This document shows, piece after piece, positions 21,267 through 52,347 of a stretch of 64,000 nt of DNA (position 1 is its first letter; each line of letters opens with the position of its first letter). This DNA comes from Bartonella sp. DB5-6 (GTDB lineage Bacteria; Pseudomonadota; Alphaproteobacteria; Rhizobiales; Rhizobiaceae). The notes beneath the pieces are model-generated. The model was not told the origin of the DNA and ran no database searches. It saw only the letters and a program-made list of their open reading frames with translations. The stretch is taken from positions 151,353 through 215,352 of the forward strand of contig NZ_JH725118.1 in assembly GCF_000278115.1 (NCBI RefSeq), given 5' to 3'. The position numbers and the translations under genes are program-made.

Positions 21267-21518
21267 CTAGTAAAAAATACGATTTATCCGATCACCTAAT
21301 GCATCTTCATGATTGATACATATTGTTTCAATATTGTCTTCAATTCTATAAAAAATACCTAAAGCATTCAACGAATGCAATAATACGTTTTTATTAAATG
21401 TAAGGGATTCAAAAATATTTTTTTGTAACAAAGATGCCGGCTGCAAGTGATATGTCTTAGTGTCTCGTGCCCTCAGATATAATCTGTCATTAAAAATGTC
21501 TCCTATGATTAATAACAT
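21267..21518 (-). CDS. Small unidentified protein coupled to the CmoA-like gene
   Basis: An 83-codon ORF beginning MLLIIGDIFNDRLYLRARDT. Its ATG overlaps the last codons of the CmoA-like pseudogene, the usual sign of translational coupling, so it was probably a true gene of the same operon. I do not recognise the family. It has no membrane segment or cysteine pattern. It may be whole or an N-terminal piece of the next broken gene. Confidence 0.4.
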   Translation of the reverse strand: MLLIIGDIFNDRLYLRARDTKTYHLQPASLLQKNIFESLTFNKNVLLHSLNALGIFYRIEDNIETICINHEDALGDRINRIFY

Positions 21519-22230
21519 AGATACCCTTTAAAGTTTAAAAAAGAAAAGCAGCACTCTATATTTTTAAAACCAACATTTCTAAACAGATCTATATTTTCAT
21601 TATCAAAATTTGGTATTAATTTATTTTCCAAAGCTATTCTTTTGTTGTCAATTTCAGTCTTGGAATATCCATTTTTTTCTTTCCACTGCAAATAAGCGTC
21701 AATATATATATCATTTATAAGTGTATTAGGAAAAACAATTTTTTCAAAAACAACCAGTGTTGGCTTAGGCTCACATGAGCTTTGAATATTTCTGAGAAAT
21801 TTTTCTCTGTCTACAGGTCTAATAAACTGCAAAACTAAATTCAGTATTATGAAATCCGGCCTTAAATTTTCTATACAGCGCCATTTACCATCCGATAAAA
21901 AATTATGACTCCCAAAAGTTATTTTGCTTAAATTAGAAGCTCATTTATTTTTCGCTTCCTCAAGCATATCAAGCGATAAATCAACTCCATAACAATGCTC
22001 CACAAGCCCCTCATTCAATATTTATGCATCGTAGTTCTAGTAGAGCATCCGATATCTATAAATATATTATTTTTTGAAAACTTCGTATAAAGCAGCAATA
22101 TAATTTTTTAAATATTTTCATAGCCAAGAACACTCCGCACCACCATATCATCAAATACTTCACAAACATCTTTAGTAAATGAAAATGATTTGCGCTTGTC
22201 TTCCTGTAAAAAAAGCAAATTCCTAACCAT
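21509..22230 (-). pseudogene. CmoA-like carboxy-SAM synthase, broken
   Basis: Across frames the segments line up with CmoA (carboxy-S-adenosylmethionine synthase): FSFTKDVCEVFDDMVVRSVL then GYENI and a TAA, NIFIDIGCSTRTT (SAM motif I), a frameshift near 22020, CYGVDLSLDMLEEAKNK and a TGA, then FIILNLVLQFIRPVDREKFL and NGYSKTEIDNKRIALEN. The last block matches the CmoA motif NGYSELEISQKR as I remember it. Its ATG overlaps the end of the upstream fusion gene. Carboxy-SAM is the donor used in carboxymethylated microcin C variants, which ties this gene to locus 1. It cannot make a complete protein. Confidence 0.8.
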
Positions 22231-23952
22231 ACCGAAACTCCAAAACTGTGAAATACGGAACATGATGACTAGCTTTCAGCGGATCTGGATGTTGTGGCTC
22301 TACAATTTTCTTTAGAACAAAACCATATTTAAAAAAAGTATTAATATAACTTGATAACGTTCGCTTATAAGACGTAAGATGAGACATCACACTGCCATTT
22401 TATTAAGGCGTGTTTTAATTTGCTTAACCTCGTAAAAATATTTTTTTTAAGATAATTTCTTTATCAACACCAGAAACACAAGAATCTTTAACTGGATTAG
22501 GGGGATACACAGAATTTTTGCACCTCGTTGTGCCAACGTTGCTACCTTCTCTATACATTTTTGATATTCACAAATATGATCTAGTACAAGCGACAAAACG
22601 ATACAATCAAATAACATATCGGTCTTATATTCATTAATATCAATTTCTAAATACTCAGTGGCTTCCCCTAATTTTCGTGACCTATCTAACATCTTTTGAT
22701 TGGTATCTATCCCCACGACCATATCCGAACAACATTCTAAAACTCTTGAATACGTTCCGATCCCACATCCAATATCTAGGGATGCTCTATAGCATCCTTC
22801 TATCAAAAGGTTATTAACTATATCATTGAGTAAAATTTCATTTAAGCTATCAACTTCTCGTGAAGTCACATAATGTTCTGCAACGATATCAAAATCATGT
22901 AAATTATCTTGAGATGGAAAAACATTACTATGTTCTAGTAAAATTTCATCACTTATGTAATCGTATACCGCTACTTCATAATTATCAAGATTAATAAACA
23001 ATCTTTTATTATGAAGAAAACGGGAGTCACCACATACGTATTTAATTACTTCATGAGCACAAATAGAAGAAACAAGATAATTTAGCGGTCCGTAAGAAGG
23101 AGCCTGATAGTTTTTATTTATAGTATATCTTAACTCGCTACATTCTATATCCATATTTTTAGCGAGCACATCAAAACCAAGATTGGAATCTGGAAAAAAC
23201 ATTGGACCTATGGCTCCCAAACGCCCTAAATATCCTGCATTAATAACCGGAGTCGAAATCTTTTTCTGAATCTCAGCCATTAACTCAAATGCATTCGGTG
23301 GATCAGCAGACAATACAACAAGGTCGACTCCTATTAAAAAAGAACAAAATTCATCTAATGCCTCGATCTCAAGTAAACGCGGCAAAGTTACAACTTGACA
23401 AGTACTGTTGTGCTTTAAAATGCGTGCTTTTAAAGCATCTACTTTTCGCAGACCCATCTGTGCTTCAATAAAAGCGGTGGTCCTTGTTAAATTTGATAAT
23501 TCAATTCAATCGCCATCGGTTATCCTTAAATAACCAATACCTGCAGCAGCTAAAAGGGTTGCTACGTTAGAACCAATGCCACCTGCACCGATCACCCCAA
23601 TTTTAGCCTGCTGTAAAGACCGCATAGCAAGATCATGATCTACTCCTGCCATATCCAAAAACAATCGATGTCTATCGTATCTATCCTGTTTCTAAACAGT
23701 AGATATAATTTTATACTCCATAAGATCTTGTAACAACACATCAATATCATAAGCCTCTTGATATGCTCGTTCGCGATATTTCTGGCTAATAGCAGTACAT
23801 TCATTTGGTACATTCAAATCTATAAGCATCTCTACTAAAAACGATGGACAGCCATTAATTTCAACTAAATCCATATAAGATGACACACACACTATTTTTT
23901 CTTGTGTCTTTATGTAAGTCACAGGCAAGGCCCTATTCAACTGTATCTTCAC
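22223..23952 (-). pseudogene. Recognition domain - ThiF/MccB-like E1 - methyltransferase fusion, broken
   Basis: One reading frame runs from GTG 23952, interrupted by TAG at 23692-23694, by TGA at 23506-23508, and by frameshifts near 22500 (a run of five C) and near 22395. Residues 1-86 look like a PqqD-type precursor-recognition domain. Next comes a ThiF adenylating domain with KIGVIGAGGIGSNVATLLA and the nucleotide-site block around IELSNLTR, then STPVINAGYLGRLGAIGPMF. A SAM methyltransferase follows (SLDIGCGIGTYSRVL) with a recognisable C-terminus, RTLSSYINTFFKYGFVLKKI. The frame in phase across the TAG argues for one ancestral gene. It starts 2 bases after the exporter gene. I infer that it joined a nucleotide to the precursor and carboxymethylated the product. 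Confidence 0.78.
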
Positions 23953-23954
23953 TC

Positions 23955-25217
23955 TCAGACCTCTTCGTTTTTTATTAATTTTTTATCAGTATAAAGCCAA
24001 GCCAAATTAAGCGGAATAATTAAACATATACAAAGCAAGGCGAAACAAAAAGCTGCTTCTATACAAACATTTATACAAACATTATTCGCCAACCAACCAA
24101 TCAGCACAAGCGCTAAAATACCAAAAATACGTGCAAGAAAATTAACAATGGATAAAACCGTATTTGCATTCTTTTGTTGAATATGTTTAAAAAATTCTGC
24201 TTCAAACTGCGTCACAGGGACAGAAAAAAAACTGTGAAATACGGTGAATAAAATAATGGGGGCCCAACTGTTTGCAACGAGAAGCAGAGCAAGCATAACA
24301 ACAGCACTCAGGACTAGTGAGCACAAAGTTATTGCCATAGGAGCATATTTTTGCATAAGATATTTAATTACAAAGCGATTAAATAAGTATTTTACGAAAG
24401 TATAAGACACAAAGCACAGGCCAAGAATAAGGATTTTAGTCTTTCCTGTTGCATTGTCTAATACTCCTGTTTGACCCAAAATAAAAGGTTGCCAAAAATG
24501 AAATATAGGCTGCAATGCAGCAACAATAAAACCACATATCAATATATAATATAACCCGATCTTTGAGGTAACTAAATAAGCAAAAGCTTCTGTTGCATGC
24601 AACAAAGAACCTGAGTCTATTGGCTTACTACCCGAAACAGATGCAATAGCTATCCCCGTCACCCGACTAAACAAGAATATAAGCACGAGAAACCCGAAAG
24701 AACAAAAATAATATGCTGACTGATAATTATCCATACACAAAACAATAAGAACACCTAGCGCACCAGCAACCATATTCATGAATGCCGTTAGTTCCCGTTT
24801 ATAGGCGTTTACTTGGTGGTAGATCAAACTACCCTTGTAACCACCGCCGTCGATTAAGCCTTTAATCCATGTGCTATCAGCGCCAGAACATAAAGCAAAG
24901 CCTAAAGCATAAATAATTTCTGCCGGAATTAAGACAGAAAGATTAGGCGCGTAAATACATAAAAAGAAGAAGAGCGAAAAAAAGAAACATGATAAGATAA
25001 CATTTTGTTTAACGCCGATTTTATCTCCTAAAATCCCACAAGGCACTTCAAAAATACAAATAGCTACGCTAAACACAATTTGCAATAAAGCTAACTGTGT
25101 TATACTAACACCCATAGACAAGAAAAAAAAAGCATGGAAGGAACCTGTAATCAGCCGAACCCCGCTCATTGCCGCACAGCCATAGAGCAATTTTTTAACT
25201 TCATAATCTATTGTCAT
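23955..25217 (-). CDS. MFS exporter of locus 1 (MccC-like)
   Basis: A 420-residue major facilitator transporter with about 12 hydrophobic segments. SMGVSITQLALLQIVFSVAI near the N-terminus is closely similar to the same region of the locus 2 exporter (SMGVSLSQLALLQITFSGTV), so the two are paralogues. GILGDKIGVKQNV is the MFS loop 2-3 motif. The ATG at 25217 (MTIDYEVKK) has GGAT eight bases upstream and is preferred to the TTG at 25229. In microcin C clusters such a protein (MccC) exports the mature peptide-nucleotide and gives partial self-protection. It stays open although its neighbours are broken. Confidence 0.8.
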   Translation of the reverse strand: MTIDYEVKKLLYGCAAMSGVRLITGSFHAFFFLSMGVSITQLALLQIVFSVAICIFEVPCGILGDKIGVKQNVILSCFFFSLFFFLCIYAPNLSVLIPAEIIYALGFALCSGADSTWIKGLIDGGGYKGSLIYHQVNAYKRELTAFMNMVAGALGVLIVLCMDNYQSAYYFCSFGFLVLIFLFSRVTGIAIASVSGSKPIDSGSLLHATEAFAYLVTSKIGLYYILICGFIVAALQPIFHFWQPFILGQTGVLDNATGKTKILILGLCFVSYTFVKYLFNRFVIKYLMQKYAPMAITLCSLVLSAVVMLALLLVANSWAPIILFTVFHSFFSVPVTQFEAEFFKHIQQKNANTVLSIVNFLARIFGILALVLIGWLANNVCINVCIEAAFCFALLCICLIIPLNLAWLYTDKKLIKNEEV

Positions 25218-25233
25218 TAATATATCCAAAAGC

Positions 25234-25270
25234 TATAAAGCTGGCAGCTTTTTTTGCTGCCAGCTTTATA
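25234..25270 (-). terminator. Strong hairpin between precursor gene and exporter
   Basis: A perfect 15-bp inverted repeat (25234-25248 and 25256-25270) with a 7-base homopolymer loop; arm TATAAAGCTGGCAGC. It sits between the precursor ORF and the exporter, the place where E. coli mcc carries a partial terminator between mccA and mccB that yields excess precursor mRNA. No long T-run follows on the minus strand, so attenuation or mRNA stabilisation are both possible. Confidence 0.75.
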
Positions 25271-25282
25271 TATTTTAAAACC

Positions 25283-25405
25283 TCAATTCAGAAGGGAGCG
25301 TCGAACAGCCATTTTCTACTCACTTGCTTGGGCGTTGAGCGCAGTAACATCAGCCCGCTTAATTTGAATTTTTTTCAGTGGTTTATATACATCTTTAGTT
25401 TTCGT
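25283..25405 (-). pseudogene. Microcin-C-like precursor peptide gene (long type), start lost
   Basis: A consensus AGGAGG (25413-25418) is followed after 7 bases by ACG instead of ATG. From there the frame reads KTKDVYKPLKKIQIKRADV, TALNAQASE, TAG, then KMAVRRSLLN and TGA. Read through the TAG it is 40 residues long and ends in Asn, the residue that MccB-type enzymes modify. This resembles the roughly 40-residue precursors known for carboxymethylated microcin C of Yersinia pseudotuberculosis. The ACG and TAG indicate inactivation. Alternatively MAVRRSLLN, from an internal ATG, could be a separate nine-residue peptide. Confidence 0.6.
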
Positions 25406-44909: not shown

Positions 44910-46411
44910 CTTTTTGTGTTTAACATATTGAAATATATAGATTTTTTCTTTAAATAGCCATTTTCAGACCACCTTTTACGGTTTAGACAACTTTATCTAA
45001 TTTACTCCTATTTGCTCCTTATTTTTCTTTGAAGTGAGTGCCAAGATTTCTTTCTTTCTCCACCTCGCTGCTCTACCTAGCTTAGCTGCTCTACTTAGCT
45101 TATATGGCTCTAGAAATAATCCCTGAAGCCCCCAATTGCGAATCGTTGTTGTTGATACGCTAAAAAATTGGTACACTCACTATCGTTCAAAAGAGGCAAC
45201 CCATATTCACAGCGTTGTTATTCCTAACTGCTCTATGGCAAAAGATTCAAATTGAACGTGGAAATGGATCGAACAAAAGAAAAGCTGTTACCGGCAGCGA
45301 TCATTGATATCTTCTCAACACAGATTAGCACACGTGTGAAACAATAATACTATACATATTGCAGAACTAATTGACGCAATATTTTTTACTTTGAAAGTAA
45401 TTTTACAGCGGATTTTGTTTAAATATTCATCTTGATATCATAAAAAAATTATTTTTTAAAACATTTAGAAAACAAAATGGAAAATATTAAAATTAACTAT
45501 AGATTTTTTGAGCAAGATGTGTATAACTCGTTATGTGTATTGAGTATGTTTTATATGTATATTATTGAATACATAATGTTTAGTTATGGTATTTTTTTTC
45601 AGTTCAGTGGCGGCTTCTGTAATACAATCATTGGTTGTTACAATTATTAAGAAAACAATTCTTATTACTTCGTAGCTTATTGTAACATATGTTTTTCTTG
45701 GTAGTTTTATGCAGATTTTAATATTGGTTTTGAAGAGATTTTTTTCTGAGAGAGATGTCGATGCAGTGTGGCATTGTAAAGAAAATGTAAAGTAAGTGGG
45801 TAGAAGATAATGAAAAAACAATGATTTAATACTCTTTGATATTGGCGTTAGCTGGGCAAAAGACAACAATATTGTCATGTGTTTTGATTATTATTTTTGG
45901 GGGAGGGAAAAAGAAATTCGCAAAGGAAAAATTTGGAATTAGCTAATCAATGACTTCCTTATTTGTGTGCCTTGAGGATTCCGATTTATTTAGCTGACCG
46001 TGAAAATTGTTCCTTTTATTAGTAATATAAGGTGCGTTCAATGAGATATTGTAAGTATGGTTTGTTCATTCAAATAAATGAATACATTAAAGGGTGTGTT
46101 AATTTAGAGAGTTTGTGAAGTAAATCGTATTAAAAGTCTTAAAAAACCATCGAAAGAATTTTTTTTTACGAATTTGATCTATTGGAAATCGTTGTCTTTT
46201 AGGCAGAGAGGAGATTGATTACTACAGAATGTACAATAATTAATATAACTTTTGTTCAAATGAAAAAGCAGCATAGGTTTTAATATCCCCTATTGCAAAA
46301 GTCTTTTAGCTTTAATGATCCACTTTACTGTCCCATTCTATGGGGAAAGTAAGTTTTTAATTTTCACTTCATTCCTGCTTTGTGTGGGTTTTTTTTATGG
46401 GATTAAGAATA
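44910..46411. other. Gene-poor left part of the prophage remnant
   Basis: No supported gene in about 1.5 kb. A 115-codon minus-strand ORF (45531-45878) lacks a ribosome-binding site and family features. Bases 45110-45310 contain protein-like plus-strand pieces of no recognisable identity. Probably degraded phage DNA. Confidence 0.4.
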
Positions 46412-47074
46412 ATGCGGAAAATATCAAAAGAAGGGCTTGCACTCATTAAGCAATTGGAAGGTTTACGTTTAAATGCTTACGAAGATGCTATCGGTGTGTG
46501 GACAATTGGTTATGGACATACAAGCACTGCCGGTGCTCCAGATGTCTATAAAGGCATGCAAATTACAGAAAAAGAAGCAGAAAAAATCCTTCTTCAAGAT
46601 TTGAAACAATTCGAAGATGTCATTAAACGAACTGTTACGGTTCCTTTAAGTGATAAGCAATTCGCAGCACTTGTGTCGTTTTGCTATAATATCGGAACAG
46701 AAGCTTTTTGTCGCTCTACACTCGTAAAAAAGCTCAATAAAGGGAATTACGAAGCCGTACCAATTGAATTGCAAAAATGGACAAGAGCAGGAGGGAAGCG
46801 TCTCCAAGGTCTTATCAATCGTCGAGCAGCTGAAGCATGGCTATGGGCTCAAGGAGCACATGTGTCTCCAAATTATCAGAGAGTAGAAGCACAAGGCGTA
46901 ACGGGTATTTGTAAAGTGGAAGCGCTTGCACCAATTATAGGTTCCTTCTCAGGGCTTGGAGGACTTTTTGCGGGGAATGGTCCTATTCAATGGGCTTTAG
47001 CGGGCATTATGGTTTTAGCAGCTTGTACGGCTATGCTATATATCGTTAAACGCTTTCAGGAGCACCGTCTATGA
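46412..47074 (+). CDS. Phage-type endolysin (GH24 lysozyme) with C-terminal membrane helix
   Basis: A muramidase of the T4/lambda-like lysozyme family. ISKEGLALIKQLEGLRLNAY carries the catalytic Glu, and VWTIGYGHTS follows with the usual Asp/Thr environment. VSFCYNIGTEAFCRSTLVKK and RRAAEAWLW are also typical. About 30 residues near the C-terminus form a hydrophobic helix (ALAGIMVLAACTAMLYIVKR), unusual for a soluble lysin and suggesting membrane attachment. The start at MRKISKEG is chosen by family length (220 aa). It overlaps the next gene by 4 bases (ATGA). Confidence 0.85.
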   Translation: MRKISKEGLALIKQLEGLRLNAYEDAIGVWTIGYGHTSTAGAPDVYKGMQITEKEAEKILLQDLKQFEDVIKRTVTVPLSDKQFAALVSFCYNIGTEAFCRSTLVKKLNKGNYEAVPIELQKWTRAGGKRLQGLINRRAAEAWLWAQGAHVSPNYQRVEAQGVTGICKVEALAPIIGSFSGLGGLFAGNGPIQWALAGIMVLAACTAMLYIVKRFQEHRL

Positions 47075-47975: not shown

Positions 47976-48520
47976 TTAAGTATTAATAAAAGCCGGAACT
48001 TCTTGCCATGGCATAGTAGGAATATTTTTTGATGTAGCAGGTGGTTTTCCTAAAAGAGCGCGTGCTTTCATACAAGCTTGTAAATCAACATCTAAACCAA
48101 GATCCGTAGCATATTTCAAGAAAATATTAATACGGTTAAGTGCCTTTCGCTCTGTATCTGCTTTTTCATGCCAAAGGGGAGCGAGAACATTGCGAATGAT
48201 ATTGTCCGTTAATTTTTCTATAGGTAATTTGCCTATGTGTGGAATAACGTGCAACTGGAGTGGAGAAAACCAGTGGCCGTTTTTGCCTTCATTTTTCAAC
48301 TCTGCTTTTTTGCTTTCAAAAGCCGCTTTTGCAATTTCTTGGAAGATATTGCTTTGCTGTTTTAAAATAGTCTGTTCTCGAAAGACAATAGGGTCATTGC
48401 CTTCTTTAAGAACATCACTATAACATCTAGTAAGCTCGCGCGCTTCTTTTAAAAAAAATTTGCAACAGGACTGGATCCCATTTCACGACACTTATTGTGA
48501 TGTGTATAACCTATGAATCG
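47976..48520 (-). pseudogene. Phage (P4-type) integrase, N-terminal remnant
   Basis: Minus-strand segments read YTHHNKCREMGSSPVANFF, then in another frame KEARELTRCYSDVLKEGNDP and FQEIAKAAFESKKAELKNEG, then HWFSPLQLHVIPHIGKLPIE. The arrangement (AREKAR-like block, then the SAM-like core-binding domain with HVIPHIGKLPI) matches tyrosine integrases of the P4 group. The frame ends before the catalytic domain with its Arg-His-Arg-Tyr residues, so it is both frameshifted and truncated. Confidence 0.7.
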
Positions 48521-49050
48521 CTCTCGCTTAATTTACCTTCTCGACCACCTTTAATTTCTGATTTAAGATTTTTTCTTTAATACTTAATTTTTTTATTGAA
48601 TCATAAAAAGCTATAGACATCAATACATTCTTGCACATCTTTATATAATTTGATTCTTGCTAATAAAGCCTGCTCTGCCTCTTTGGGGCACCAGATGCGT
48701 TTATGTTACATTTTACTTATTGATTTTGTAATTTTTTTAAGATAAAGAAACTTGCAAATCTCTATAGAAGGCACAAACGCTACAGTTACATCACATTTTT
48801 TAGCCATATCTATTGATCTATTATTAGCATAATATAGTTTTTTTATCGTAAAGAATTAAATTAAAACTATTAGCAATTATCTATCAATATGTATCTAAGA
48901 AGCATTCATTTTTCATCAATATTTCTTATATACTAAACAGTAACAGCTGACTTATCTAAAGCTTCCCCTCATTACTATTTTTATAAAAATGTTCATCCTC
49001 TATCATAAAAATGTATTTACAATAATGCCGTTTCGACATAGCCTGCCTCT
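48521..49050. other. Spacer between prophage remnant and microcin-C-like locus 2
   Basis: No supported gene. A short minus-strand segment near 48620-48690 (WCPKEAEQALLARIKLYKDV) looks protein-like and may be another phage scrap. Confidence 0.4.
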
Positions 49051-49064
49051 GTCACACGCGTGAC
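49051..49064. promoter_or_regulatory. Short inverted repeat upstream of the precursor gene
   Basis: GTCAC-ACGC-GTGAC, a 5-bp perfect inverted repeat 36 bases before the precursor ATG. It could be an operator or part of a leader hairpin. No promoter boxes are clear enough to mark. Confidence 0.3.
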
Positions 49065-49099
49065 GAGTAATGAAAATATAGAGACTAAAGAGAGAGATC

Positions 49100-49123
49100 A
49101 TGGATCATATAGGTTTTAATTAA
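49100..49123 (+). CDS. Microcin-C-like heptapeptide precursor MDHIGFN
   Basis: A seven-codon ORF, ATG at 49100, encoding MDHIGFN followed by TAA. It has the two defining features of MccA-type precursors: seven residues and a terminal asparagine, the residue converted to the phosphoramidate-linked isoasparagine. GAGAGAGA lies just upstream as a ribosome-binding site. The gene stands 74 bases before a MccB-like gene, the order known in E. coli (peptide MRTGNAN). In that system the mature product is a Trojan-horse inhibitor of aspartyl-tRNA synthetase after cleavage of the carrier peptide. Such a short ORF can arise by chance, but length, last residue and position all agree. Confidence 0.75.
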   Translation: MDHIGFN

Positions 49124-49197
49124 TAAAGAAATTCTTTTACCTGAAATTACTTTTTAGCAAAAGCTAGACTAATGAATAGATGTGTGGGGGAGGAAGT

Positions 49198-50262
49198 ATG
49201 GAATAGCAATATATTTTAGGAAAATACACGCGTGTTGTTGTCCGTGAAAAGGATGCGATTTTTGGTGCAGGCTCAAAACAATTTATTATCAATGATAGAA
49301 AACACTGGGAGAGTTTGGTACTTCTTGCCGCACAATGGATCGAGAAAAAGACAATAGAAGAAGCTTACAATTCGCTATCGTCAATTATGTTAAAAGAAAA
49401 CTTTAACCGCGCATTTGACTTTCTTTTTTCTAACCACTTTCTTGTTTTGGCTGAAACATCAGAAAATATCTTCAATAATCGGTATTCCAGAAGTCATCTC
49501 CACTATCAAAGTTACGGTATGAATCCAAACTCCGTTCAGCACACCCTGTCACAAAAAGTGGTCGTCATTTTAGGATGTGGCGGGATTGGTAATCATGTAT
49601 CAGCAATACTGGCTACTTCTGGTGTAGGGAAATTAATTTTTGTTGACAATGATGTGATTGAGATGAGAGACCTTACCAGACAAATTCTCTTTACTGAAGA
49701 AGATAGTGGGCTTCCGAAAACAACTGTTCTTCGACGTGAATTGTCGCGGAGAAACAGCCAGAGTGAAGTTAGTGAATTACAAATATCGATCACTACGAAA
49801 GAAGATATCAAAAAATTACCCAAAGCTGATTTATGGATTATTTCTGCTGATACACCTGATCAACTGGTACCATGGATAAATGAATGGTGTGTACAAAATA
49901 AACAAGCCTATATAAATTCCGGCTATGTTAATGATATAGCTGTTTTTGGTCCTTTTTACATCCTTGGGCAAACTGGCTGCTACGTATGCAGCTCATCCAT
50001 AGGAAATCTCCCCCCAAAAAGTGACCACTTAATCTATAATGCTTGCGCTGCTATCAATAATAACTTTAAAATCGCCACCTTTCCCCCCGTAAATGCTCTT
50101 GCAGCCGCAATGTGCGCCAATGATGCTCTTAAATTTTTGGGTGGTTATGGTGATCTACTTTCCACTAATCGCCGTGTGGGGATATGGATCAGCAAACTTT
50201 TCACAGAAGAGCGTTCCTTAAAAAAGAATCCTCACTGCAAAGTCTGTGGAACAAAACAATGA
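49198..50262 (+). CDS. mccB: MccB-like peptide adenylyltransferase, amber codon at position 3
   Basis: Strongly similar in my memory to E. coli MccB over its length. NRYSRSHLHYQSYGMNPNSV leads into the ThiF-type motif VVVILGCGGIGNHVSAILAT. FVDNDVIEMRDLTRQILF is the ATP-site block, INSGYVNDIAVFGPFY follows, and CYVC with CKVC near the end is the zinc site. The start with ideal GGGGGAGGA is ATG 49198, giving ME then TAG (49204-49206), then QYILGKYTRVVV, which matches the MccB N-terminus. So the gene is interrupted at codon 3. The only obvious later start is TTG 49315, which would remove about 39 residues of the peptide-binding region. Suppression, a sequencing error, or inactivation are possible. 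Confidence 0.85.
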
Positions 50263-51479
50263 ATAGACCCCGAACACTCGCTGTAACCTATGGATCCTAC
50301 CACGCAGTACGGATGTTGATCGGTGTTTATCACGCCATTTTTTTGATGTCTATGGGTGTTAGCCTATCCCAATTGGCTCTGCTGCAAATCACCTTTTCGG
50401 GAACCGTCTTGCTTCTTGATTTTCCCTGTGCTGTTTTGGCTGACAAATATCGGCGTAAATACTCGGTCACAGCTGGAGTTTTTATGACTGGGTTGTTTTA
50501 TATTCTCTGCCTTCAAGCCCCCAATATGACAGCACTTATCATTTCTCAGATCTTCTATGCAGCAGGAATTTGCCTTATTGTCAGTGCCATTGACGGGTGG
50601 ATTTTCCATTCTCTAGGAAACAAACAGGATCTTTTTTCGCATTATGCACATCTTTCTCACAAAGTAAATTCCTTCGGAAGCGTTATTAGTGGTATCGTAG
50701 GAATTGCAACGATATATTACTCGAAGCAATATTTCATGGGATATATCATCTCATGCCTGATGATGGGGGTACTTCTCTTTGTATTTCTTATTGTTCCTGA
50801 AGAGGAGAAATCAAAAAGTGAAGGGACAAAAACAAAAACCATCCTACAAAATGCTAAGGAAACGCTCTGGATATTGCAAAACACCGTTGGAGGAGCATGG
50901 TTTGTTTTTCTGATGTGCCTTTTCAGTGCTGGTATTCAGATTATCTATCACTTCTGGCAGCCGATAATACTCTCGGGTGGAAAAATCAATCACCTCAATA
51001 GCTCACAAATGTTAATATTAATGTTCTGCCATATCGGAGCATTCTCAGCACAATATTTTTCCAATTCACTAATGTCTAAGTATCACATATTTGATAAAAA
51101 ATATAAGAATTCTGTAAAATATTTTTCCTTCTTTTCTGCCCTTATGTGCATAGCGCTTTATTTTTTTGTCCATAGCAATCAAACCACTGCATCAATCATC
51201 GCGTTTTCGTTAATTCATGGTTTTATTTGCACTGTACCGATAGGCGCAAAAAGCTTGTTTTTTTCAGAGCTTACCCCGAAACAAACCCAGCATATTTCCG
51301 GTATTGTCGGTGCTGTATCTTTCAGCGGAAGAATATTTTCAATCGCAGTGTTAAGTGTTATCTCTTTTCTTCCTGCAAAAGTTTCACCTTCTTATTATCT
51401 TATATTGCCAACCACGACTTTTTTCATGTGTTGTTTGGTTATCATGAGGTGGACGTCTCTCTCTCGCAAATCTATATGA
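50259..51479 (+). CDS. MFS exporter of locus 2 (MccC-like)
   Basis: A 406-residue major facilitator with about 12 hydrophobic segments, homologous to the exporter of locus 1 (shared blocks MGVS.QLALLQI.FS, and HFWQP.IL in the middle). The start ATG overlaps the mccB-like stop as ATGA, so the two are translationally coupled; the longer ORF to 50184 overlaps mccB and is rejected. In microcin C operons the gene after mccB (mccC) exports the product and contributes to self-protection. This reading frame is intact. Confidence 0.82.
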   Translation: MNRPRTLAVTYGSYHAVRMLIGVYHAIFLMSMGVSLSQLALLQITFSGTVLLLDFPCAVLADKYRRKYSVTAGVFMTGLFYILCLQAPNMTALIISQIFYAAGICLIVSAIDGWIFHSLGNKQDLFSHYAHLSHKVNSFGSVISGIVGIATIYYSKQYFMGYIISCLMMGVLLFVFLIVPEEEKSKSEGTKTKTILQNAKETLWILQNTVGGAWFVFLMCLFSAGIQIIYHFWQPIILSGGKINHLNSSQMLILMFCHIGAFSAQYFSNSLMSKYHIFDKKYKNSVKYFSFFSALMCIALYFFVHSNQTTASIIAFSLIHGFICTVPIGAKSLFFSELTPKQTQHISGIVGAVSFSGRIFSIAVLSVISFLPAKVSPSYYLILPTTTFFMCCLVIMRWTSLSRKSI

Positions 51480-52347
51480 AAAAAATCATACAATTACCGT
51501 CTCCAAATGTTTCCTTTTGGAATATATCATGCGCTTTTGGGCCCCTTCGCACATTTGCACTTCAAAATACGACGCAGATAACATGATAAAAATCGATTAA
51601 ATACATCATAAGGCTATTATTGCTCACCAAAAGCGAAGTACTTCAAATAACAGTGCACACACAAACACGTTATTAAAAACGATATGATTATAACTTTGAC
51701 AGCAGCATAAAAATTAATACATACCCAATCTCTTCTTACCTTGTGATAACAAAACTCTTAAGACAGTAAAATTATATAATATATGTATAGAGATCACGAA
51801 GCAAAGCGTAGAATACACAGAGTTTATGAACTGAAAAAGTCTATTAAAAACGACAAAATCGCGCTTTTTAAATTAGAAAGATCTACCCCCTAAGATTCAA
51901 TTAATCTTATTAAGATTTCACCTGCATGACTATTCAAACTGCGTAAACATAGTAACAAAAAACTGTGCAATATCTCTAAAACTCATTCTAGTGCTCCCAC
52001 AACCCATTTTAATGAAAGCGTCGAATTTTGACACTTCATAAAAACCAGCCCAAAACAGTTCACAACAACAATTCAATAATGCAAAGAAACTTTCTGCAAA
52101 TGCTCAAAACTTTCTAAAAGCATGAAATGTTTTTTTAATAAACAATTCAAAGGGCTTTTAGAAGACAATCCAACCTTAGAGCATAAAAAATATCTCTAAA
52201 AATAAACAGAGCTTCACAGCAAAAATTGCAAACCACAAAAATACACTCTCGAAGCAGAAAAGCTACAAAAAGGACGGGATAGGCAAAAAATAAATCAAGT
52301 GAATTAAAACACCTAGTCTTATTATAAATCACCGATTTTATTGAGAA
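51480..52347. other. Spacer after locus 2, no immunity gene seen
   Basis: About 870 bases with no supported ORF. I looked for MccE-type acetyltransferase or MccF-type serine peptidase genes, which protect E. coli producers, and saw none. Confidence 0.5.

Follow-up and report, generated by a model that had tools for sequence, protein, structure and literature searches.

A minimal microcin C operon of the E. coli type in Bartonella, most likely no longer producing in Bartonella sp. DB5-6 and with its exporter gene intact

Organisation of the operon and its chromosomal setting

The stretch of DNA analysed here, hereafter the window, comprises 64,000 nucleotides of the Bartonella sp. DB5-6 genome (G000) and carries on its plus strand the three genes of a minimal microcin C operon, together with an intergenic element. 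The features of this operon are as follows.

49100..49123, plus strand: mccA, heptapeptide MDHIGFN and stop, seven codons from ATG to stop, with a purine-rich stretch immediately 5'
49134..49163, plus strand: mccA-mccB intergenic hairpin, of which the 13-bp stem present in relatives no longer forms in the window
49198..50262, plus strand: mccB, predicted peptide nucleotidyltransferase of the ThiF/E1 family, with an in-frame TAG at codon 3 (49204-49206) and open from 49207
50259..51479, plus strand: mccC, MFS exporter of 406 aa, with an ATGA overlap with mccB

A sequence-only reading of this DNA had proposed the gene order mccA-mccB-mccC of a minimal microcin C operon, and this proposal is supported by the membership of the enzyme in MccB, by the gene order and by the conservation of the peptide. 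The Asn-ending seven-codon ORF was found where that reading had placed it, as was the ATGA-coupled MFS exporter, which is encoded in the same operon as mccB. The ribosome-binding site of mccA (AGAGAGAG) is purine-rich, as had been claimed, but it lacks GGAGG, and several relatives have longer G-rich stretches at this position. The gap between the mccA stop and the ATG at 49198 measures 74 bases and the frame that ends at 50262 contains the blocks ILGCGGIGNHVSAILAT and VDNDVIEMRDLTRQ and two CxxC pairs, so that the description of an MccB-type gene holds in these respects, but 49198-50262 is not an open reading frame, its third codon being TAG. An Rfam scan of the window at gathering scores returned three tRNAs and nothing else, and promoter-like sites were fewer in the window than in shuffled sequences.

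In species whose flanking DNA differs, similarity to the window begins at about 48970-49080 and stops at about 51480-51520, and the mcc unit therefore measures about 2.5 kb including a leader region. A comparison of 19 loci showed two chromosomal sites. The window's own site, which adjoins a tRNA-Ser and a porin-like gene, accounts for 13 loci, and the other is occupied in L034, L037, L041, L042, G061 and G086. Phage-like remains, judged by eye, lie 5' of the operon in the window, namely a lysozyme-like ORF (46382-47074) and an integrase-like fragment (47976-48299).

The arrangement closely resembles that of E. coli pMccC7-H22, in which an Asn-ending heptapeptide (MRTGNAN) is followed by a 74-base gap containing an inverted repeat, by an MccB that is 45% identical to the window protein and by an MFS gene that overlaps mccB. 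The two differ in the sequence of the peptide, in the stop at codon 3 of the window's mccB and in the genes that follow, since methyltransferase and GNAT acetyltransferase genes come after the E. coli MFS gene, whereas neither was seen 3' of the window's mccC. A further difference is that the Bartonella genome gave no match to an S66 peptidase (MccF family) at an E value of 0.001, in a search whose control gave matches in six of 14 genomes. The pHPG27-type operon of H. pylori is likewise a minimal mccA-mccB-mccC, in which the ATG of MKLSYRN precedes the annotated start of the enzyme by 108 bases, but identity to that enzyme is only about 29%, across 74% of the query. According to PMC6495379, the E. 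coli-type clade has short precursors, mostly of seven residues, with an N-terminal Met and a C-terminal Asn, and a strong Shine-Dalgarno sequence 5' of mccA.

The MccB enzyme and its heptapeptide

Pfam and NCBIfam annotate the enzyme as ThiF-like and no finer. A comparison with solved structures in the PDB was more informative: three E. coli MccB sequences were the best matches (7e-104, residues 2-350) and the next best was E. coli ThiF at 3e-14, whilst MccB proteins on E. coli and Salmonella plasmids are 45% identical to the window protein over 100% of the query. The comparison of the 49198-50262 protein with MccB that the sequence-only reading had recommended gave a full-length match. That reading had also named clustering with non-MccB E1 enzymes as an outcome that would speak against it. 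In a tree of 15 proteins, for which the program warned of long branches, eight Bartonella sequences instead grouped with the MccB of E. coli and H. pylori (support 95/95); outside this group fell the MoeB of the same genome, its third ThiF paralog, a ThiF protein of G019 and the ThiF proteins of L. plantarum and Pantoea. On these comparisons the window enzyme is assigned to MccB. Thirteen GTDB records were fetched, nine from Bartonella at 59-85% identity and four, at 26-29% identity, from MAGs labelled Anaerolineales, Chloroflexi or Ca. Aquidulcis. The closest relative of the window operon is that of G013 (MccB 93%, MccC 95%), in which mccA, mccB and mccC are all open. Phage records gave 15 partial matches to mccB, none covering more than 80% of the query.

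Two other ThiF regions were encountered. The third ThiF paralog of the same genome (371 aa; L095:4431-7490, G000:C4, minus strand) adjoins a transporter-like ORF of 386 aa, judged by eye, and a ClpA-like AAA protein of 248 aa, and this region is possibly a further peptide-modifying cluster. In G019:C5 (L098:8277-15710) a Cupin_8/JmjC-like gene, a ThiF gene, a transporter-like ORF (by eye) and a radical-SAM gene lie in a run that looks like a peptide-modification cluster.

Short ORFs of this kind are not rare. Counting both strands, the window contains six Asn-ending seven-codon ATG ORFs, and the TAA-ended pattern has five matches, one of them with an internal stop, against 3.98 expected, a number reached by 42 of 100 shuffles. 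Only the ORF at 49100 among the six has AGGA, GGAG, GAGG or GAGA in front, a generous Shine-Dalgarno-like set for which it qualifies through GAGA. In a search of 71 Bartonella genomes, one per species, mccB was found open across 351 codons in eight (G000, the window itself; G013; G020; G061; G070; G027, B. washoeensis Sb944nv; G086; and G031, B. queenslandensis BqUM). The search of related genomes for an Asn-ending heptapeptide, which had also been recommended, found a seven-residue MDHxxxN ORF 5' of mccB in seven of the eight. MDHIGFN is encoded by G000, G027 and G061, and MDHMGCN, MDHRGFN, MDHLECN and MDHIFCN occur in the others; the eighth genome, G070, encodes MDYRNYNA, one residue beyond Asn. 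Where mccB is frameshifted the peptides are MDHSECN (G080), MDHTECN (G073), MDHTECNE (G026), MDHTGCNE (G076) and MDHPKFK (G079), and in G085 the start of the peptide is lost. A lack of conservation in orthologous loci, which would have counted against the operon, was thus not what was found, the MDHxxxN peptide being kept at the same place. It is conservation in relatives, and not the ORF itself, that on this sequence evidence sets MDHIGFN above chance.

The suggestion of a new carrier peptide did not survive this survey: MDHIGFN is not new at the sequence level, because B. washoeensis Sb944nv (L034/G027) and G061 encode it too. The B. washoeensis operon shares with the window the identical peptide, an MccB at 85% and an MccC at 82-83% identity and the presence of the hairpin, but differs in having an open mccB, a hairpin that folds and another chromosomal site, where its neighbours are what we take to be moeB- and kdsB-like genes, named from their protein sequences. 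The B. washoensis MccA-MccB pair was reportedly reconstituted in vitro by Bantysh et al. 2014. The statement that surveys had predicted an mcc-like cluster in a Bartonella is borne out by PMC10949449, which mentions mcc operons of Bartonella, and inactivated production in B. quintana and B. henselae, with citation of Bantysh et al. 2014 and Severinov 2007. Bartonella mcc operons are already in print, and the pattern of decay seen here is of interest; no statement on retained exporters or on a carboxymethyl-cytidine cluster in Bartonella was found in a limited search confined to one open-access library.

Exporters that outlive their synthetases

Of the 71 genomes, 38 contain mccC sequence with at least 50% identity, a count from which G011 was left out, as its match, at 31%, is the second exporter described below. 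Thirty of the 38 were inspected. Full-length mccC was found in 21, of which seven have an open mccB and the other 14 a broken or missing one; both genes are broken in eight, and G020 combines an open mccB with a stop in mccC. The remaining eight of the 38 have partial or stop-ridden matches. Pairwise Nei-Gojobori estimates, in which the pairs are not independent, gave a median dN/dS for mccC of 0.100 (0.035-0.208; 91 pairs) in the 14 genomes without an intact mccB and 0.124 (21 pairs) in the seven with an open one, values that denote purifying selection on the exporter gene in these genomes.

The remnants in G019, G092, G088, G072 and G093 have in common five frame-changing indels inside mccB and, measured against G031, a 38-base deletion at the position of mccA, although G072 aligns to its sister remnants over about 600 bases only. 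It follows that the operon was dead in the ancestor of these five genomes, and since then mccC has accumulated a dN of 0.006-0.032 against a remnant that differs at 8.1-18.6% of aligned sites. One frame-changing indel inside mccB is common to G002, G069 and G035, and none to G080, G026 and G001. As the mccC tree joins G031, whose mccB is open, to G093, and as G080, G026 and G001 have no such indel in common, recombination and separate losses are mixed. The mcc family is not dead as a whole, because mccA, mccB and mccC are free of visible lesions in five genomes other than that of the window (G013, G027, G061, G086 and G031). G086, the main operon of which is open, also has a second, degraded copy of mccC (G086:C35:9044-10250).

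A second and more decayed mcc operon lies on the minus strand of the window (25405-21509), about 24 kb from the first and of a different type.

25283..25405, minus strand: second mccA remnant; in relatives a 40-residue precursor ending in Asn, here without its start codon and interrupted by an in-frame stop
25237..25267, minus strand: inverted repeat between the second mccA and the exporter gene, read by eye without a folding tool
23955..25229, minus strand: mccC2, second MFS exporter, 424 aa from TTG (420 from ATG), open
22447..23952, minus strand: mccB2, ThiF domain and C-terminal methyltransferase domain, with in-frame TAG (23694-23692) and TGA (23508-23506)
21509..22399, minus strand: mccS-like (CmoA-like) remnant in several frames

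The domains of mccB2 are ThiF, which matches E. coli MccB at 1.2e-8, and Methyltransf_11, and the CmoA model TIGR00740 matches 21512-21832 at 1.8e-23, which is below its curated cut-off on that fragment. An MccB with a C-terminal carboxymethyltransferase together with MccS characterises the carboxymethyl-cytidine type of microcin C (PMC9239234, PMC12250964), and the 40-residue precursor of relatives agrees with a clade whose precursors have 17-56 residues (PMC6495379). The long Asn-ending precursor of relatives, the MFS gene, the ThiF-methyltransferase and the CmoA-like gene are all features of the Yersinia/Bacillus/Nocardia-type carboxymethyl-cytidine operons, from which the second cluster differs in being broken in the window. 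By its layout the cluster belongs to this type, the group transferred being predicted to be carboxymethyl and not methyl. No aminopropylation or immunity gene was recognised by eye among ORFs of at least 100 aa between 17000 and 30000. Viral contigs contained no relative of the cluster, and the 32 plasmid records that match its ThiF part do so over no more than 80% of the query.

mccC2, which is about 31% identical to mccC, occurs at more than 50% identity in 18 of the 71 genomes, and 15 loci were examined. The precursor is intact, with 40 residues ending in Asn, in six of them (G013, with the sequence MKTKDMYKSLKKIQIKRVDVTVLKAQVSEQKMAARRSLLN, G080, G073, G066, G092 and G068); in G019 the final N is present but out of frame, and in eight loci, including the window, the precursor is cut short. 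Eight of the 15 have an exporter frame that is open across 400 residues, with a median dN/dS of 0.20 (28 pairs), and mccB2 is recognisable, using a 336-residue C-terminal piece as the query and E values up to 1e-12, in only two of the 71 genomes, that of the window with its two in-frame stops and G031 as a fragment. In both operons, then, the pump is retained and the synthetase lost, so that two distinct mcc operons show the same asymmetry.

The pump probably outlives the antibiotic as an immunity determinant. The exporter might also have been kept for a different substrate, in which case it would look identical. MccC belongs to the general MFS_1 family and matches tetracycline-efflux models weakly, far below their cut-offs, and G072 and G034 retain it with no match to mccB by protein search (though in G072 some 600 bases upstream align to the sister remnants). 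Such a role is nevertheless rather unlikely, as the pump is retained alike in two distinct mcc operons of the genus and selection on mccC is equally strong with and without an open mccB. The more interesting findings are the retention of the pump and the presence of a second operon.

State of the operon in this genome and its meaning

The mccB frame of the window is open for 351 codons from 49207 with no other lesion, and no ATG, GTG or TTG follows the stop in this frame before the TTG at 49315. The mccB changes specific to this genome comprise 7-10 nonsynonymous and 6-9.5 synonymous ones, according to the outgroup chosen; these numbers do not suffice to demonstrate a loss of selection, and the damage looks recent. 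Stops at codon 3 are also present in the mccB of G073 and G076, both with additional frameshifts, and this codon is therefore a repeated place of decay. Amber suppression was considered and rejected, there being no CTA anticodon among the 35 tRNA genes detected in the genome, a set that is incomplete because it lacks tRNA-Ile.

The second lesion concerns the hairpin. In 14 aligned intergenic sequences there is a common 13-bp stem with a 5-base loop, and with the structure taken from the G013 fold 94.4% of cells pair. Six of the 13 stem pairs have changes on both sides, which none of 500 shuffles reached, although on one weaker measure, further pair types, 33 of 500 shuffles reach the observed value; shifting the partner by 1-3 columns reduces pairing to 30-69%. 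This covariation speaks for a 13-bp hairpin in the mccA-mccB gap of Bartonella. When ten of the 14 were folded, nine gave z scores of -1.83 to -4.99 (G013, -4.83) and the window alone failed (-0.48); the window has lost this element. No terminator-like site was found between the window's mccA and mccB. The corresponding place in E. coli holds a terminator, and ribosome binding to mccA induces termination there (PMC6495379).

The TAG at codon 3 and the unfolded hairpin together suggest that the cluster is probably silent here. The codon-3 stop could reflect a sequencing error, the assembly being a draft of 25 contigs, or mccB could be translated by another route, in which case a functional operon would make the MDHIGFN-nucleotide; mccA, mccC and the other 351 codons of mccB are indeed intact, and all three genes are open in the closest relative, G013. 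This is however improbable, given that the assembly does carry the stop with no suppressor tRNA among those found, that the hairpin fails in the window alone of the ten folded, and that the same codon is stopped in the further-frameshifted genes of G073 and G076. The sequence-only reading held that the organism makes, or made, a peptide-nucleotide antibiotic; the stop, the damaged hairpin and the want of an amber suppressor among the 35 tRNA genes favour "made" and disfavour "makes". That the enzyme is a ThiF/MoeB-type E1 and MDHIGFN a chance ORF, as the bare Pfam label and the frequency of such ORFs might allow, can be dismissed, the former by the PDB matches, the 45% identity to plasmid MccB and the tree, the latter by the conservation of peptide and position.

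It can be held with good confidence that the window contains a microcin C operon of the minimal E. coli type, passed down within Bartonella, in which biosynthesis is most likely switched off and mccC is intact, that is, a member of the E. coli type by descent and probably not by function. In a working operon mccA would specify a heptapeptide with a terminal Asn, which MccB would turn into a nucleotide phosphoramidate, presumably a Trojan-horse inhibitor of aspartyl-tRNA synthetase; MccC would export this product and would thereby protect the producer. By analogy with E. coli, the hairpin may set the excess of mccA transcript over mccB. With mccB stopped at codon 3 and the hairpin broken, the operon of this genome would be silent, its mccA and mccC being intact.

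For the genus a broader reading can be offered tentatively, at slightly less than even chances: that Bartonella once had two chemically different mcc systems, the synthetases of which were lost repeatedly whilst the exporters remained under purifying selection, and that many species are now resistant non-producers. The occurrence of two types of mcc operon about 24 kb apart in one genome is useful for studying how such clusters spread and die. If the broader reading is true, it would imply that these bacteria have long been in contact with microcin C-like antibiotics made by a few sister species with which they have hosts or vectors in common. The genus, with its open operons, broken synthetases, pumps alone and genomes with none of these, constitutes a natural series for testing the ecology of antibiotic loss and retained immunity.
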